Part shown: in pieces, positions 17,110 through 28,091 of the stretch
Layout: each line of letters opens with the position of its first letter
Position numbering within the stretch: position 1 is the first letter of the stretch
Assembly: GCA_018399255.1 (NCBI GenBank)
Contig: JAGYPA010000002.1
Span: forward strand, 1 to 64,000
DNA from: Spirochaetales bacterium
GTDB lineage: Bacteria > Spirochaetota > Spirochaetia > JABMQR01
DNA: 64,000 nucleotides
Reading direction: 5' to 3'
Notes under the pieces: generated by a model
The model's database searches: none
What the model was told of the DNA's origin: nothing
What the model saw: the letters and a program-made list of their open reading frames with translations, nothing else
Translations under genes and position numbers: made by a program

Positions 17110-17194
17110 TGCCGAAGACGAGACTTGAACTCGTATAGCCATAACAGCCGGGGGATTTTAAGTCCCCTGTGTCTACCAATTCCACCACTTCGGC
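17110..17194 (-). tRNA. tRNA-Leu (anticodon UAA)
   Basis: The minus strand folds as an 85-nt class II tRNA. The acceptor stem GCCGAAG/CTTCGGC is followed by discriminator A at 17110. The anticodon stem GGGGA/TCCCC encloses loop CTTAAAA with anticodon TAA at 17158-17160. A long variable arm is present and the T arm contains GTTCAAGTC. The 3' CCA is not encoded. Confidence 0.95.
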
Positions 17195-18753: not shown

Positions 18754-19896
18754 CTACTCTCCTTCAGCCCCAGTCCCAGCCCCAGTCCCAGTCCCGAAAA
18801 CCAGTTCCCAGACCGCGGGCACGGTCAGGACCGGCTCATCAGCTTCTTTCAATTGCCGGAAAGCAATCTGATCCAGCAGCTTTTTCGCTGTTCCGGCATA
18901 ATCTTCCCGAATGCTTACAACCAGCTCCCGTTTGCTGCCAGCCAGCCAGTCAGCCTCCTCGGTAATAACGGTAATCCTGTTATTCACGGCTGACTGCAGT
19001 ATATCCGGAGTTCGTGCTCCTGCATAGATACCGACAACTTCTGTTTTTGATTCGCGTGCACCCTGGATTATTTCCCGATTCTCAGCTGAAGAACCGTCCT
19101 GACTCAGGGTAAAAACCTGCACAGCAGCATCAGCGTTTTGCCAGGCTGCTGCCGCCTGAAATGCTGCGGCATAGGCTTCTCCTTCACTGTCACCGTCAAT
19201 ATAGATAAACCCCAGGTTTTCTGCCGTGCCTGCAGCATATTCTCCAGCAGCCTGCCATGCCGGGGTCATATCCCTTTCTATCCGGATGAAGCCGCCAGAA
19301 AACCGGGTATAATCTTCAGGACTGCCATTTCCAGAGGGCAAATCACTTGATGCCTCTTCCTGTACATGCCGTGACGGAATCCAAACTATAACCTGCCTTT
19401 GCGGCAGCTGCCTGATGGCTTCAAGAACTGGATCAATAACCGGCGAATCAGATACATACAGGGAAGAAACCCGGGGAGAAAGCAGAACCAGATCCCGGGG
19501 ATCGTCAATTCCTGACAGCGCGTCAAGTATTCGCTGATTGGCAGAGAGCTCCCCGCTTTTTCCAGCGGCGTTAAGGATTGAAGCATTATCAACTTGATTG
19601 CTTTCAACTTGATTGCTTTCAACTTGATTGCTTTCAACTTGATTGCTTTCAACTTGATTGCTTTCAACTTGATCACTGTACACCGTAAAAGAGACCGTAT
19701 AGCCGAATTCCCGGACTGCCTTCCGCACTTCCTGCTTATTCTCTTCAATGAACTCTGCATAAACAGGGTCTAAAACAAAAAGTATTTTGTCATTTGCACA
19801 AGAAATAACCAAGATGGAAAAACAAAGAATATAGAATGATGCTGCGAAAAGTTTTCCGGGAGATGTTTTTGTATAAGTAGAAATGTGCTTTCCCAT
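18754..19896 (-). CDS. Periplasmic-binding-protein-like lipoprotein with VESNQ repeat
   Basis: The 380-residue protein has a type II signal sequence ending in LVISC (Cys about residue 33), so it should be lipidated. The mature part alternates strands and helices like a periplasmic binding protein/BMP-type fold (for example VVGIYAGARTPDILQSAVNN). A five-residue unit, VESNQ, repeats five times near residues 75-100. The C-terminus is a Gly/Thr/Ala tail encoded by 6-bp repeats. An upstream TTG frame exists, but its TTG is the -35 box of a promoter whose -10 ends 7 nt before ATG 19896, so I chose the ATG. The ligand is unknown. It forms an operon with the 18188-18751 gene. Confidence 0.7.
   Translation of the reverse strand: MGKHISTYTKTSPGKLFAASFYILCFSILVISCANDKILFVLDPVYAEFIEENKQEVRKAVREFGYTVSFTVYSDQVESNQVESNQVESNQVESNQVESNQVDNASILNAAGKSGELSANQRILDALSGIDDPRDLVLLSPRVSSLYVSDSPVIDPVLEAIRQLPQRQVIVWIPSRHVQEEASSDLPSGNGSPEDYTRFSGGFIRIERDMTPAWQAAGEYAAGTAENLGFIYIDGDSEGEAYAAAFQAAAAWQNADAAVQVFTLSQDGSSAENREIIQGARESKTEVVGIYAGARTPDILQSAVNNRITVITEEADWLAGSKRELVVSIREDYAGTAKKLLDQIAFRQLKEADEPVLTVPAVWELVFGTGTGAGTGAEGE
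19590..19673. repeat. 15-bp coding tandem repeat, 5.6 copies
   Basis: The unit CAACTTGATTGCTTT is repeated exactly at 19590, 19605, 19620, 19635 and 19650, with a partial sixth copy at 19665-19673. Being 15 bp it preserves frame and encodes VESNQ on the minus strand. Perfect identity points to recent expansion. Confidence 0.95.
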
Positions 19897-19903
19897 GGAG
19901 TGA

Positions 19904-19932
19904 ATAGTAGCAGGCAGACGATCAGTGGTCAA
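19904..19932 (-). promoter_or_regulatory. Putative promoter of a leaderless lipoprotein mRNA
   Basis: Read on the minus strand: TTGACC (19932-19927), 17 nt, TACTAT (19909-19904), then 7 nt to ATG 19896. No Shine-Dalgarno precedes the ATG, so transcription should begin at or next to the start codon. Confidence 0.6.
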
Positions 19933-23457: not shown

Positions 23458-23571
23458 GACTCATTGCATTCTTCGTGATATATTTTGCTGATATGAAAAT
23501 GCAGAGACCGTATTTCTGCATACCCAGTTTATAGTGGCAATGTTTTGGTAAAGAAAACAGTAGGAGGAAGA

Positions 23572-24105
23572 TTGGCTGCGAAAAAACAGAGAATCAACAA
23601 TCAGATCAGAATACCTGAAGTACGTCTGATTGATGAACTTGGTGAACAACGGGGGGTGGTACCTACCCAGGAGGCATTGCGTATCGCCATGGAAGCTGGT
23701 CTTGACCTGGTGGAAGTTGCACCGAATGCAAATCCGCCTGTTTGCAAGATCCTTGATTTCGGCAAGTTTAAATATGAACAGGAAAAAAAATTGCGGGAAG
23801 CCCGCAAGAACCAGACACAGATAAAGCTTAAAGAAATTCGCATGCAGCCAAAAATAGAAAAACACGATCTTGAATTCAAGACAAAACATATAACAGACTT
23901 CCTGGCTGAAGGCAACAAAGTTAAAGTGACGATACGATTTCGCGGTCGTGAACTGGCTCACACGGAGCTCGGTCGGGCAGTGCTCGAAAGGGTGCTCGAC
24001 ATGCTCAGCACCAATGAGGTCGGTTTCAACCTTGATCGGAGCCCGCTTATGGAAGGAAGGTTCATGTCAATGATCATAAGTCCGGCAAAAAGTACTAAAA
24101 AATAG
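23572..24105 (+). CDS. infC: Translation initiation factor IF-3
   Basis: The 177-residue protein is IF-3, which binds the 30S subunit and checks start-codon pairing. The N-domain opens with [15 protein letters not shown], the linker is rich in Lys/Glu, and the C-domain runs through [12 protein letters not shown] to the end. The first in-frame candidate is TTG 23545. I prefer TTG 23572 because AGGAGG (23562-23567) lies 4 nt upstream and the family N-terminus begins there. No ATG is available. A non-AUG start is the hallmark of infC autoregulation in E. coli (AUU), so the same control is likely. It heads infC-rpmI-rplT. Confidence 0.95.
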
Positions 24106-24166
24106 CCGGATACTTACTTTATCATACAGAGAATATTGAACATTGAGAATCCTGTCATAGAAAGAC

Positions 24167-24205
24167 ATTCTATGTGGAAAAATATAGAATCCGCAGTCTG
24201 CGGAT
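24167..24205 (+). promoter_or_regulatory. Two overlapping hairpins in the rpmI leader (candidate L20 control)
   Basis: The 160-nt infC-rpmI gap holds ATTCTAT (24167-24173) paired with ATAGAAT (24184-24190), and ATCCGCA (24189-24195) paired with TGCGGAT (24199-24205). The stems share two bases, so they compete. L20 autoregulates rpmI-rplT in several bacteria through structures in this region, so control here is inferred by position. Confidence 0.4.
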
Positions 24206-24265
24206 ACATACAATGCAGTTCCAGGGGTGAATCTTGTTCCCTGAGAACGCAAAGGAAAGGTATTT

Positions 24266-24466
24266 ATGCCAAAAATGAAAACAAGAAAAGCCGCCGCAAA
24301 GAGGTACAAGGTAACCGGTACCGGGAAAGTCCTGTACAAAAAGCAAGGCACACGGCACATTCTCACCAAGAAGAGCTCGAAAAGGAAGCGAAGTCTTCGT
24401 CACTCGGATGTTTTAAGTGATCCTGAAACAAAAAAAGTGAAAAAACTGCTTCCATACAAGTTCTAA
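24266..24466 (+). CDS. rpmI: Ribosomal protein bL35
   Basis: The 66-residue basic protein matches bL35: [20 protein letters not shown] at the start, [14 protein letters not shown] in the middle and KLLPYKF at the end. It is part of the large ribosomal subunit. GGAAAGG precedes the ATG. It lies between infC and rplT in the order conserved across bacteria. Confidence 0.97.
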
Positions 24467-24485
24467 AAAGGAGAGGATATCCACC

Positions 24486-24845
24486 ATGCCAAGAGCAGTA
24501 GACGGTACAAGAAGAAAAGACAGACGAAAGAAAATCCTTCAGGATGCTAAAGGATTTTATGGAAGAAGAAGCACCAATTTCAGGACAGCAAAGGATGCTG
24601 TAACAAAAGCCGGTCAGTATGCCTACCGGGATAGAAAAAGAAAGAAAAGAGACTTTCGCAGATTGTGGATAACAAGGATTTCTGCTGCAGTACAGTCAGA
24701 AGGCCTGAACTATTCTCAATTTATGCACGGTTTGAAAATAGCCAACATTGAAATCAACAGAAAAGCACTCTCTAATATGGCAATAGAAGACAAGCAGTCT
24801 TTCTCTGTTCTTGTTACTCAGGCAAAAAAAGTATTAGAGGTGTAA
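24486..24845 (+). CDS. rplT: Ribosomal protein bL20
   Basis: The 119-residue protein matches bL20, an early 50S assembly protein that binds 23S rRNA and usually represses its own operon. [20 protein letters not shown] (residues 20-39) and [20 protein letters not shown] (residues 46-65) are characteristic. AAAGGAGAGG lies upstream of the ATG, 19 nt after rpmI. The stop is 1 nt before the ZapB-like gene, linking ribosome and division functions on one mRNA. Confidence 0.97.
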
Positions 24846-24846
24846 T

Positions 24847-25245
24847 ATGCTAACTTTAGATAAGGTTCAGCTCCTTGAAGAACGGATAAAAAAAGCTGTA
24901 ACCCTTATCCACAAGCTTCGCGAGGAAAATGCTGCCTTGAGGGATGAGTTGGAAATGCTGAAAATGCATAATGATGAGCTTAAGGATTTTGCCAAGAGCC
25001 TTGGTAATGACACTCAGCTTATAGAAAAAACCATTTCAACCGCCCTTACCAATCTCGAAGAGGTTGGTGAAGGCTTTCAGGCAGCTATAGAACCTGCTGA
25101 TTCAGCCGAAATGGATTATGCAGAAGCAGATGTCTTCGCATCTCAGGACGGTGCAGTAATCGAGGATCTGGAATTACCGAAAGATGACCCGAATGATGAT
25201 ATTATCATCAATCTGGGCTTGGATGAGGATATACCCCTCTATTAG
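24847..25245 (+). CDS. ZapB-like coiled-coil division protein
   Basis: The 132-residue protein has a coiled-coil N-terminal half (residues 5-75, VQLLEERIKKAVTLIHKLRE and LRDELEMLKMHNDELKDF) and an acidic C-terminal half rich in Asp/Glu. The N-terminal half resembles cell-division ZapB/YiiU-type proteins, which bridge ZapA-FtsZ filaments. Its location directly before zapA supports a Z-ring role; this is inference from context and coiled coil. It starts 1 nt after the rplT stop with AGAGGTG upstream, so it is translationally coupled to rplT. Confidence 0.6.
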   Translation: MLTLDKVQLLEERIKKAVTLIHKLREENAALRDELEMLKMHNDELKDFAKSLGNDTQLIEKTISTALTNLEEVGEGFQAAIEPADSAEMDYAEADVFASQDGAVIEDLELPKDDPNDDIIINLGLDEDIPLY

Positions 25246-25268
25246 CCTCAGATATGGGAGAAACATGC

Positions 25269-25574
25269 ATGGATAGTCATGTAGTCAGGGTAACTGTTTT
25301 AGGGCATAAACTTTCAGTTCGTACTGATTCACCCCCTGAACAACTCTCCACTGCTATATCATATATTGAGGAGAAGGCGAAATTACTGAAAACTGCTTCC
25401 ATTACAGCAGATCCATTGAAACTCAGCATTCTCCTGAATATTATCCTTGCCGACGAACTAATAAAAACCAATAAAGAATTGGTTAAGATCAAGCAGACTG
25501 AATTTTCCGAGCTTGAAAAAGCCGACCAGCTGGCATCCGATTTGATTGAGTTGATATCACAAGAAATCGAATAG
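25269..25574 (+). CDS. zapA: Cell division protein ZapA
   Basis: The 101-residue protein matches ZapA: an N-terminal beta region (VVRVTVLGHKLSVRT) followed by a long helix that dimerises and bundles FtsZ filaments. Two ATGs are possible. ATG 25269 was chosen because GGGAGAAA precedes it, whereas ATG 25254 lacks an RBS. Immediately after the stop begins a 6S RNA, the same zapA-ssrS arrangement known from many proteobacteria. Confidence 0.85.
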   Translation: MDSHVVRVTVLGHKLSVRTDSPPEQLSTAISYIEEKAKLLKTASITADPLKLSILLNIILADELIKTNKELVKIKQTEFSELEKADQLASDLIELISQEIE

Positions 25575-25784
25575 CCGCTTATCTGATTGATCGCTGAAGA
25601 TTACAAGTTCCTGCGGTGTGCGGGCGAAACACAAATCTCTTGGGTCAACTATTATAAAAGGGACTTCAACGTTTTCCTGTTGAATTGATCCATGTATTTG
25701 GAACAGGATGCAGGTTACAGAAGACCCACTTGAACCTAAGAAGTTCAAGAGATTACGTTTCAATCGGCATCGCGGGTTTTTTTT
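25575..25784 (+). ncRNA. ssrS: 6S RNA
   Basis: The 3' part contains CTTGAACCTAAGAAGTTCAAG followed by AGATTACG and CGGCATC, which closely parallels the E. coli 6S segment with its CUUGAAC/GUUCAAG hairpin. The ends pair (CCGC..AT..GATTG at 25575-25589 with CAATC..AT..GCGG at 25761-25775), giving the closing stem. Inside, GGGTCAA pairs with TTGATCC, capped by TTCAAC/GTTGAA, forming the long apical arm around the open central bubble. A T8 run (25777-25784) ends it. 6S RNA mimics an open promoter and binds sigma70-RNA polymerase. The ends are estimates; it could be processed from the zapA mRNA because no clear promoter is seen. Confidence 0.88.
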
Positions 25785-25845
25785 GCTGCCCATTCTTCGG
25801 TATCCAAGCTTACCGCCCCACCCCACCCCACGAGAGAGGTATTCT

Positions 25846-26979
25846 ATGGACATTAATAACAACCCCGACATTCCTGAGCAACTGAAAAACATTCTCTATA
25901 TTTCCCTTCCTGAAGGAACTGGACGAAAAATTGGTGATTTTATTATTGATGAAAATCATCTGATACCAGTTGAAATTCCGAAAGGACAGTCAGAACTTGA
26001 TTTGACTAATCTCTCCTGGGAAATGATTGTATCAGCCATGCTCAGAATTTTTGCCTATAAACCGGACCATAGTGATATCGAATACTACCGGAAATTTATT
26101 CATGCTGTGCAGCCCGACATTATTCCGGAATTGACCAAAACTGGAGTTATTAAGGCTGAGGACAAAGATTTTCTATTGGCAGAAGAAATATTTCTTGCTT
26201 TGAATCACTTTGCACCTGAAGAACCTTTCACATTTCTCAACCTTGCATTTCTCTACGAAGAGATGGCGGAAATCGCGAAGAAAACAGGCAGCTTTCTCAA
26301 CAAGCTCAAGGAAAACTATCTTAACAAGGCCTTTGAAACCTACACTGCAGGCGTAGAGGCCCATCCTGATCATCCGGATATGCACTTTTATTCAGGGTAT
26401 TTTTATCTCAAAAACCAGAATCCTTCAAAGACTCGCGAACATTTTGAGTTCTTCCTCGGTCTTGCCCCAGAAGATGAAAGAAGCAGTGAAATCCGGGAAA
26501 TAACTGAGCGGATCAGCATGCAGAGTCAGGATGACCAGCTGTTTACTGAAGCTTTCGATCTCATTAAGCTCGAAAATGAGCCAGAAGCTATAACTCGCAT
26601 AGATCAGTTCCTTCAAAGGAATCCCCAGGTCTGGAATGCCTGGTTTCTCAAGGGATGGGCGCACAGGAGACTGGGAGAGTATTCAAAAGGAAAAGATGCT
26701 CTGGAACAAAGTCTTGAGCTGGAGAAGTATACTACCGATATTTATAATGAACTGGCTATTTGCTGTATGGAAACTGGATTCTTGACTCAAGCGTATAATC
26801 ATTTAAAGGAAGCACTGGCAATTGAACCGGAAAACACGAAAATCATTTCTAACTTCGGGGTACTGGAGATGAAAAAAGGCAATCCTGATGAGGCTCTCCG
26901 CTTTTTTCTGACAGTTCAGGAACTTGATCCTGATGACCCCATAGCAGCGGACTACATTGCTAAGCTTTCCGGGGCCTGA
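25846..26979 (+). CDS. TPR-repeat protein
   Basis: The 377-residue cytoplasmic protein has an uncharacterised N-terminal half and about three tetratricopeptide repeats at the C-terminus (WNAWFLKGWAHRRLGEYSKG, then DIYNELAICCMETG, then TKIISNFGVLEMKKGNPDEA). There is no signal peptide. A longer frame begins inside the 6S RNA, but ATG 25846 has GAGAGAGG upstream. It lies 3 nt before tsaE and is probably co-transcribed with tsaEB. The binding partner is unknown. A short CCCCA repeat lies in its leader (about 25815-25830). Confidence 0.8.
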   Translation: MDINNNPDIPEQLKNILYISLPEGTGRKIGDFIIDENHLIPVEIPKGQSELDLTNLSWEMIVSAMLRIFAYKPDHSDIEYYRKFIHAVQPDIIPELTKTGVIKAEDKDFLLAEEIFLALNHFAPEEPFTFLNLAFLYEEMAEIAKKTGSFLNKLKENYLNKAFETYTAGVEAHPDHPDMHFYSGYFYLKNQNPSKTREHFEFFLGLAPEDERSSEIREITERISMQSQDDQLFTEAFDLIKLENEPEAITRIDQFLQRNPQVWNAWFLKGWAHRRLGEYSKGKDALEQSLELEKYTTDIYNELAICCMETGFLTQAYNHLKEALAIEPENTKIISNFGVLEMKKGNPDEALRFFLTVQELDPDDPIAADYIAKLSGA

Positions 26980-26982
26980 CTT

Positions 26983-27417
26983 ATGCCCCCCGATTTGCTA
27001 AGCATTATTTCTCATAGCGATCAGCAGACGCTCGAGATTGGGAAAAGATTGGGGAAAATCTGTCAGAAAGGAACGGTATTTTCTCTGAGGGGTCCGCTAG
27101 GATCCGGCAAAACAATACTTGCTAAAGGTATTGCGCTTTCCCTGGGAATAACAGAACCGGTCACCAGCCCGACTTTCACCATTATTCAGGAGTACAATGG
27201 AATTTACCCTCTGTTTCATATTGATTTATACCGCCTCGATAATCCTGAAGAATTTGAGCTGCTCGGGGGTGAAGAGCTGCTCTTTAATGAAACAGTTACC
27301 ATTATTGAATGGAGTGAAATCATAGACAGCCTGCTTCCTGATTCAACTATATCGATAAACATATCAATTGAAAAAAATCAGGACCGCAGAATAGTAATTC
27401 AGGGAGTCTCGATATGA
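26983..27417 (+). CDS. tsaE: tRNA threonylcarbamoyladenosine biosynthesis ATPase TsaE
   Basis: The 144-residue protein is the TsaE ATPase of the t6A37 tRNA-modification complex (TsaB-TsaD-TsaE). The Walker A motif is GPLGSGKT (about residue 37), then TSPTFTIIQEY (about 60), HIDLYRL (about 79) and IIEWSE (about 107). Length is normal. There is no clear RBS; it is coupled to the TPR gene 3 nt upstream. It overlaps tsaB by ATGA (27414-27417), matching a functional pairing. Confidence 0.93.
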   Translation: MPPDLLSIISHSDQQTLEIGKRLGKICQKGTVFSLRGPLGSGKTILAKGIALSLGITEPVTSPTFTIIQEYNGIYPLFHIDLYRLDNPEEFELLGGEELLFNETVTIIEWSEIIDSLLPDSTISINISIEKNQDRRIVIQGVSI

Positions 27418-28091
27418 ACATTTTAGCTTTCGACACATCCGGTGCCATGCTGGATATCGCATTAAAGACCCGAGGCAAACTCTATTCCCGCTACCATCAA
27501 ATCGGTTTGCAGCATTCTGAGCATATCATGCCGGCTATCATTGAACTCTGCAAAGAAGCATCAATTACTATTCAGCAGCTTGAGCTGGTAGTAATTACGC
27601 GAGGTCCAGGTTCTTTTACCGGTCTGAGGGTAGGAATGGCAACTGCGAAGGGGTTGGCTTTTGGATTGCAGATACCGCTCGTTTCGGTTCCCACTCTCGA
27701 TACTCTCGCTGCAGCAGCAAGACTTGCACATAGTAATCTTAAAAAGGAACAAAGAATCATTGTTCCGGTAATCGATGCCAGAAAACAGCGTTTTTATGCT
27801 GCTGTATATAAGTCCGGCAATCGAGTGAGCGAATATCTTGATATATCTCCTGAAGATTTACTGAACCACCATCTAATTCATTACAACGATATACTTCTTG
27901 CGGGACCAGACAGCGAACGGTTTCTTCAGCTCCTAAAGAAAACAGGAATCCCGACTTGTTCTCCTGCTGTTGCAGCATCAGTTCCTATGCCTGCAGCTCC
28001 AGTTCTCATAGAAGCTGGTTTAAGTCAGTATGAAACGATAGGAAGTGACAGTGCTGATCAGGGCCCGTTGTATATCAGAAACAGCACATAG
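27414..28091 (+). CDS. tsaB: tRNA threonylcarbamoyladenosine biosynthesis protein TsaB
   Basis: The 225-residue protein has the ASKHA fold of TsaB (YeaZ): ILAFDTSGAMLDIAL at the N-terminus, QHSEHIMPAI (about residue 34), RGPGSFTGLRVGMATAKGLA (about 63) and VPVIDARKQRFYAAVY (about 116). TsaB scaffolds TsaD for t6A formation on ANN-decoding tRNAs. It overlaps tsaE by four bases. tsaD is not in the window. Confidence 0.93.
   Translation: MNILAFDTSGAMLDIALKTRGKLYSRYHQIGLQHSEHIMPAIIELCKEASITIQQLELVVITRGPGSFTGLRVGMATAKGLAFGLQIPLVSVPTLDTLAAAARLAHSNLKKEQRIIVPVIDARKQRFYAAVYKSGNRVSEYLDISPEDLLNHHLIHYNDILLAGPDSERFLQLLKKTGIPTCSPAVAASVPMPAAPVLIEAGLSQYETIGSDSADQGPLYIRNST

Follow-up and report, generated by a model that had tools for sequence, protein, structure and literature searches.

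The window, a 64-kb stretch of DNA from an uncultured spirochaete lineage, contains directly downstream of zapA a gene that by its identity, structure, conservation and location is the single 6S RNA gene (ssrS) of its genome; by analogy with known 6S RNAs, its product would hold RNA polymerase and release it through pRNA synthesis. This reading as a whole has a probability of about 0.96. The Rfam match, the covariation and the conservation in relatives all agree with the identity given in the original prediction. The 6S RNA is genuine and ordinary, it occupies a position that is common in its lineage, and nothing in it falls outside the known 6S family.

Identity and fold of the RNA

The Rfam covariance-model search that had been proposed as a check gave a match to RF00013 (6S RNA, SsrS) with an E value of 1.8e-10 and a score above the curated cut-off of 46.4 bits (Table 1). 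The match covers model positions 1-187 of 187, the full length, and is one of two Rfam matches at gathering thresholds in the window, the other being a tRNA. The window sequence shares with the family the closing stem, the central bubble, the apical arm, the CUUGAAC/GUUCAAG motif and the U-rich 3' end. The Rfam score is moderate; R1, a spirochaete-specific covariance model built from 11 class sequences, scores such sequences far higher, in the window by construction because it is among those 11 training sequences. The minimum free energy (MFE) fold of positions 25604-25784 (-55.9 kcal/mol) is a rod with closing stem, central bubble and apical stem-loop, and has a z of -3.69 against dinucleotide shuffles, of which one in 200 folds as well.

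The start at 25575 did not hold up, as this base directly follows the zapA stop codon and the modelled 5' end lies 30 nt later. The predicted T8 tail is present at 25777-25784. A simple terminator scan with a loop limit of 8 nt did not list this 3' end, because its loop exceeds that limit.

Table 1. Features of the 6S RNA locus, in window coordinates
Feature	Position	Strand	Basis
infC, rpmI, rplT	23545..24845	+	PF05198, PF00707, PF00453
zapB-like gene	24847..25245	+	PF06005, 34.2 bits (cut-off 31.5)
zapA, directly upstream of 6S	25254..25574	+	ZapA PF05164, 33.3 bits (cut-off 23.8)
6S RNA (ssrS), modelled mature region	25605..25782	+	RF00013, 64.5 bits; spirochaete model R1, 179.4 bits (window in training)
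Closing stem, 5' arm	25610..25624	+	Fold; helix 1
Central region, 5' strand: TCTCTTGGGTCAAC and A/T-rich bubble; putative pRNA template by analogy	25634..25661	+	CTTGG core conserved in 38-row alignment
Apical arm, GGGAC...AGACCC	25660..25727	+	Helices 4-6
Alternative hairpin CTTGAAC-ctaagaa-GTTCAAG, 3' strand	25729..25749	+	Sequence; 97.4% of cells paired
Closing stem, 3' arm, and T8; terminator-like 3' end	25766..25784	+	Sequence, fold
TPR protein gene, corrected start	25846..26979	+	TPR families; start by comparison with the relatives G003, G002 and G001
tsaE and tsaB	26983..28091	+	PF02367, PF00814

Covariation was analysed in an alignment of 38 spirochaete 6S sequences fitted to the R1 structure (A5). 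Pairing holds in 92.5% of its base-pair cells, and both sides have changed in 26 of the 40 pairs. The covariation score is 0.403 against 0.166 for shuffles, none of 500 shuffles reaching it, and structures slid along the alignment score at most 0.123 with 36-55% of cells paired. The figures lean towards the structure because the alignment is model-fitted and 11 of the 38 sequences trained R1, but both the slid and the shuffled controls fall far short of them. RNAalifold on a mixed alignment of 15 sequences (A1) gave a weak consensus because A1 aligns poorly outside the class; A3 and A5 were used instead. The paired ends and the apical arm of the original prediction are both borne out: helix 1 has 98.4% of cells paired and changes on both sides in 9 of 12 pairs, and in helices 4-6 such changes occur in 11 of 13 pairs.

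The CUUGAAC/GUUCAAG hairpin is present as predicted, not as an addition to the rod but as an alternative to it. The MFE fold places GTTCAAGAG opposite the CTCTTGG side of the 5' strand, and 93.5% of the cells in this helix are paired. Because the two structures draw on shared 3' bases, hairpin and helix are mutually exclusive. Being almost invariant, the hairpin has no covariation support of its own (42 of 500 shuffles reach its score). In known 6S RNAs such a hairpin is the conformer that forms on pRNA synthesis and releases the enzyme, and the mutual exclusion seen here matches what would be expected of that switch.

Gene neighbourhood in the window and across Spirochaetia

The gene order in the window is infC, rpmI, rplT, zapB-like, zapA, 6S, TPR gene, tsaE, tsaB and trxB-like. 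The ORF at 24266-24466 is conserved in relatives and is presumably rpmI, judging from gene order; from its length of 225 amino acids the PF00814 gene is inferred to be tsaB rather than tsaD. The position next to zapA, as originally described, is upheld by the PF05164 match. The setting from infC to tsaB, with no folate cyclo-ligase gene (ygfA/fau) adjoining the 6S gene, is also correct by domain matches, but not as an oddity, since the block with 6S is shared among many Spirochaetia and the setting is therefore common in the lineage.

Elsewhere in the window, the tRNA gene (17110-17194, reverse strand; RF00005, 58.4 bits) has a long variable arm and is read as Leu type from its anticodon. An ORF at 18754-19932 on the reverse strand contains a run of identical five-residue QVESN repeats, that is a 15-nt tandem repeat, and an overlapping ORF at 19386-19760 reads the same repeat as KLKAI.

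In a tblastn search of the neighbouring proteins against 60 loci, the block was found whole or in part in most loci of the class. The 80 loci found with the TPR protein belong almost entirely to metagenome-assembled genomes of Spirochaetia/Spirochaetales, the closest (JAIPFR010000007.1) with 94% identity. Rfam gave 6S over the cut-off in 22 of 38 of these loci (15/20 and 7/18), and with R1, 25 of all 80 have a 6S on the plus strand ahead of the TPR gene at E below 1e-16; of the 13 remaining R1 rows, 12 mirror these 6S genes on the opposite strand and one is marginal. One of the loci, L160 (JAIOTT010000201.1), is filed as a Bacteroidales metagenome-assembled genome and carries a spirochaete zapA-6S-TPR block (TPR 60% identity, 6S 69.9 bits); the contig is probably mis-binned. 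In L158 (3782-3963) and L159 (3776-3952) the 6S immediately precedes the TPR gene and is itself preceded at short distance by an inverted repeat; zapA was not detected in the locus, and the zapA-6S linkage seems to have been lost.

A further 43 class loci around rplT were hand-picked from genomes without a strict Rfam 6S match in the phylum sample. R1 identified 6S in seven of them at E below 1e-7 (L129, L123, L122, L117, L108, L115 and L116) and in L133 at 1.3e-4, with weak matches in L147, L144, L134 and L132. In six of the first seven loci, all but L129, the 6S immediately precedes the TPR gene and ZapA was not detected. A lenient Rfam scan of the 43 loci found 6S only in L129 (over the cut-off) and L132 (under it), the other rows being ribosomal RNA genes in L125 and otherwise matches of the kind expected by chance. 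No 6S was found by R1 at E up to 5 in 31 of the 43 loci, and the arrangement is therefore not universal in the class. At this place 6S was not found in most of the loci with the working label Treponema-like and in several others. The infC-to-tsaB slot with 6S is thus common in the class but not universal. Loci with zapA and no 6S by Rfam or R1 are L105-L107, L109-L114, L118-L121, L125-L128, L130, L131 and L135-L143; in these the 6S is either absent, moved or too diverged.

A 6S RNA of Borrelia burgdorferi (Bb6S) was reportedly predicted in Barrick 2005. Later work describes Bb6S (ssrS) as upregulated by the stringent response (PMC6041397), and as an RNA that co-sediments with RNA polymerase subunits (PMC13285594). 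A genome with the working label Borrelia-like has a weak 6S candidate (26.7 bits, under the Rfam cut-off) in the equivalent slot between rplT and tsaE; in contrast to the window, zapA was not found beside it and its sequence is more diverged. Outside the spirochaetes, PMC9788540 describes the order zapA-6S-ygfA in Alcanivorax and, with reference to Wehner 2014, in other Gammaproteobacteria. In that proteobacterial locus the 6S is directly downstream of zapA, as in the window, whereas the window has TPR, tsaE and tsaB after the 6S instead of a folate cyclo-ligase gene, and infC-rpmI-rplT-zapB upstream. Our literature search found no description of a spirochaete zapA-6S locus, from which we claim no absence from print.

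An overlap of the 6S with the leader of the TPR gene had also been suggested. The TPR gene starts at ATG 25846, about 62 nt after the end of the 6S, and its homology to relatives begins only after the 6S; TPR transcripts may begin within or after the 6S, and the overlap is no more than a suggestion. Instead of acting freely in trans, the 6S could still serve the TPR gene in cis as a leader or attenuator, with the closing stem and T8 terminating transcription or allowing read-through. This would fit the terminator-like 3' end shortly before the start codon and the adjoining of the two genes in the genomes of the family and in the f12 genomes, but it is very improbable given a complete 6S anatomy in which the central region and the apical arm are conserved, the distance of about 0.8-0.9 kb between the 6S and the TPR gene in L173, L179 and L185, and the Borrelia-like loci, which have tsaE next. 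Even less probable is that protein is encoded here in place of an RNA, the TPR gene being extended to a 423-aa ORF that is open in the window from ATG 25708 and runs into the 6S: G003 has stops in this frame before ATG 25846, and G002 and G001 have stops upstream of the homologous start. The upstream part is therefore spurious, as originally proposed, and a coding reading of 25708-25845 is rejected.

Conservation, copy number and distribution

Between the window and its sister genome G003 the 6S is identical at 176 of 178 positions, and both changes are at unpaired positions of the window fold. The gap between the 6S and the TPR gene is identical in 51 of 108 aligned columns (47%), the gap between zapA and the 6S in 27 of 30 and zapA itself in 288 of 321. 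Identity of the window 6S is 79.9% to G002 and 77.3% to G001, with 10-37% in the flanking gaps. The 6S is an island of conservation between diverged flanks in the four family genomes.

The source genome (4.4 Mb, 246 contigs, 90.5% complete) contains one 6S copy by both Rfam and R1 searches, with no second copy of the 6S-1/6S-2 type found by either. A decayed, non-functional copy, for which the score of 64.5 bits, modest beside the 102.2 of the best genome of the phylum sample, might speak, has next to no probability, as this sole copy has an intact T8 tail and has hardly changed between the sister species, in contrast to the diverged flanking gap.

The 6S gene is found in 4 of 4 family genomes examined, which also make up the whole order as sampled. 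In the phylum sample of 296 genomes, 96 have an RF00013 match at E up to 0.001 and 84 are over the cut-off, and R1 finds 6S in 80 of 198 class genomes, both with strict filters. One class genome (G385) has two partial R1 matches (C137:1-119 and C29:16426-16538), either a second copy or contamination, which is given as 7% for this genome.

Distance to zapA and proposed function

Distances were obtained from 42 loci with 6S coordinates, and 134 loci were scanned for ZapA. zapA lies upstream on the same strand in 29 of the 42 (28 distinct, as L098 and L175 are the same) and ZapA was not detected in 13. In 24 of the 29 the 6S model start falls between 5 nt inside and 14 nt after the zapA stop, seven overlapping the stop; longer gaps were found in the window (30 nt), L155 (29), L156 (63), L160 (94) and L157 (228). 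Among the matches listed, at least 10 genomes of other classes were seen by eye to have the 6S tail-to-tail with an opposite-strand zapA at up to about 350 nt, so that the two genes are again close neighbours, in a different orientation.

Because so many starts lie at or overlap the zapA stop, the 6S may be cut from, or terminate, the transcript of the ribosomal-protein operon. The Spirochaetia 6S would then be the 3'-end product of an infC-rpmI-rplT-zapB-zapA transcript, with the stem and U-tract terminating the operon, the 5' end cut at the zapA stop, and supply tied to operon expression. This is unlikely, though well short of negligible. Two observations count against it, one being the longer gaps of 29-228 nt in the window's own family. 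The other is a modestly raised paired -35/-10 score just upstream of the 6S (7.33 of 12 against 6.77 +/- 0.16 in Markov resamplings, 0/200 as high, with related sequences that are not independent and a resampling that keeps dinucleotides only approximately), which fits a promoter of the 6S itself inside zapA. No fixed -10 hexamer stands out upstream of CCTG.

6S RNA is a small promoter-mimicking RNA that holds RNA polymerase. It is typically an abundant RNA of about 200 nt, usually rising in stationary phase, and binding to the housekeeping holoenzyme is known for other 6S RNAs. By analogy, the window 6S would fold into a long rod whose central bubble resembles an open promoter, bind the housekeeping sigma-RNA polymerase holoenzyme and hold the enzyme when nucleotides are scarce. 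Once nucleotides are available again, the enzyme would transcribe a short pRNA near TCTCTTGGGTCAAC, with the 5' strand of the bubble as template, a role that we take over from the 6S RNAs of E. coli and B. subtilis. The predicted pRNA start, as placed by alignment with these two RNAs, is presumably GUUGACCC. pRNA synthesis would free GUUCAAG, the CUUGAAC/GUUCAAG hairpin would form and the enzyme would be released.

The window thus adds a well-supported 6S gene from an uncultured spirochaete lineage. The zapA-6S linkage known from Proteobacteria is also found in many Spirochaetia, in a different gene block and among them genomes for which the Rfam model is insufficient. Processing of the 6S from the upstream operon would, if it occurs, tie its supply to genes of the ribosome and of division; otherwise the window 6S is an ordinary housekeeping RNA.
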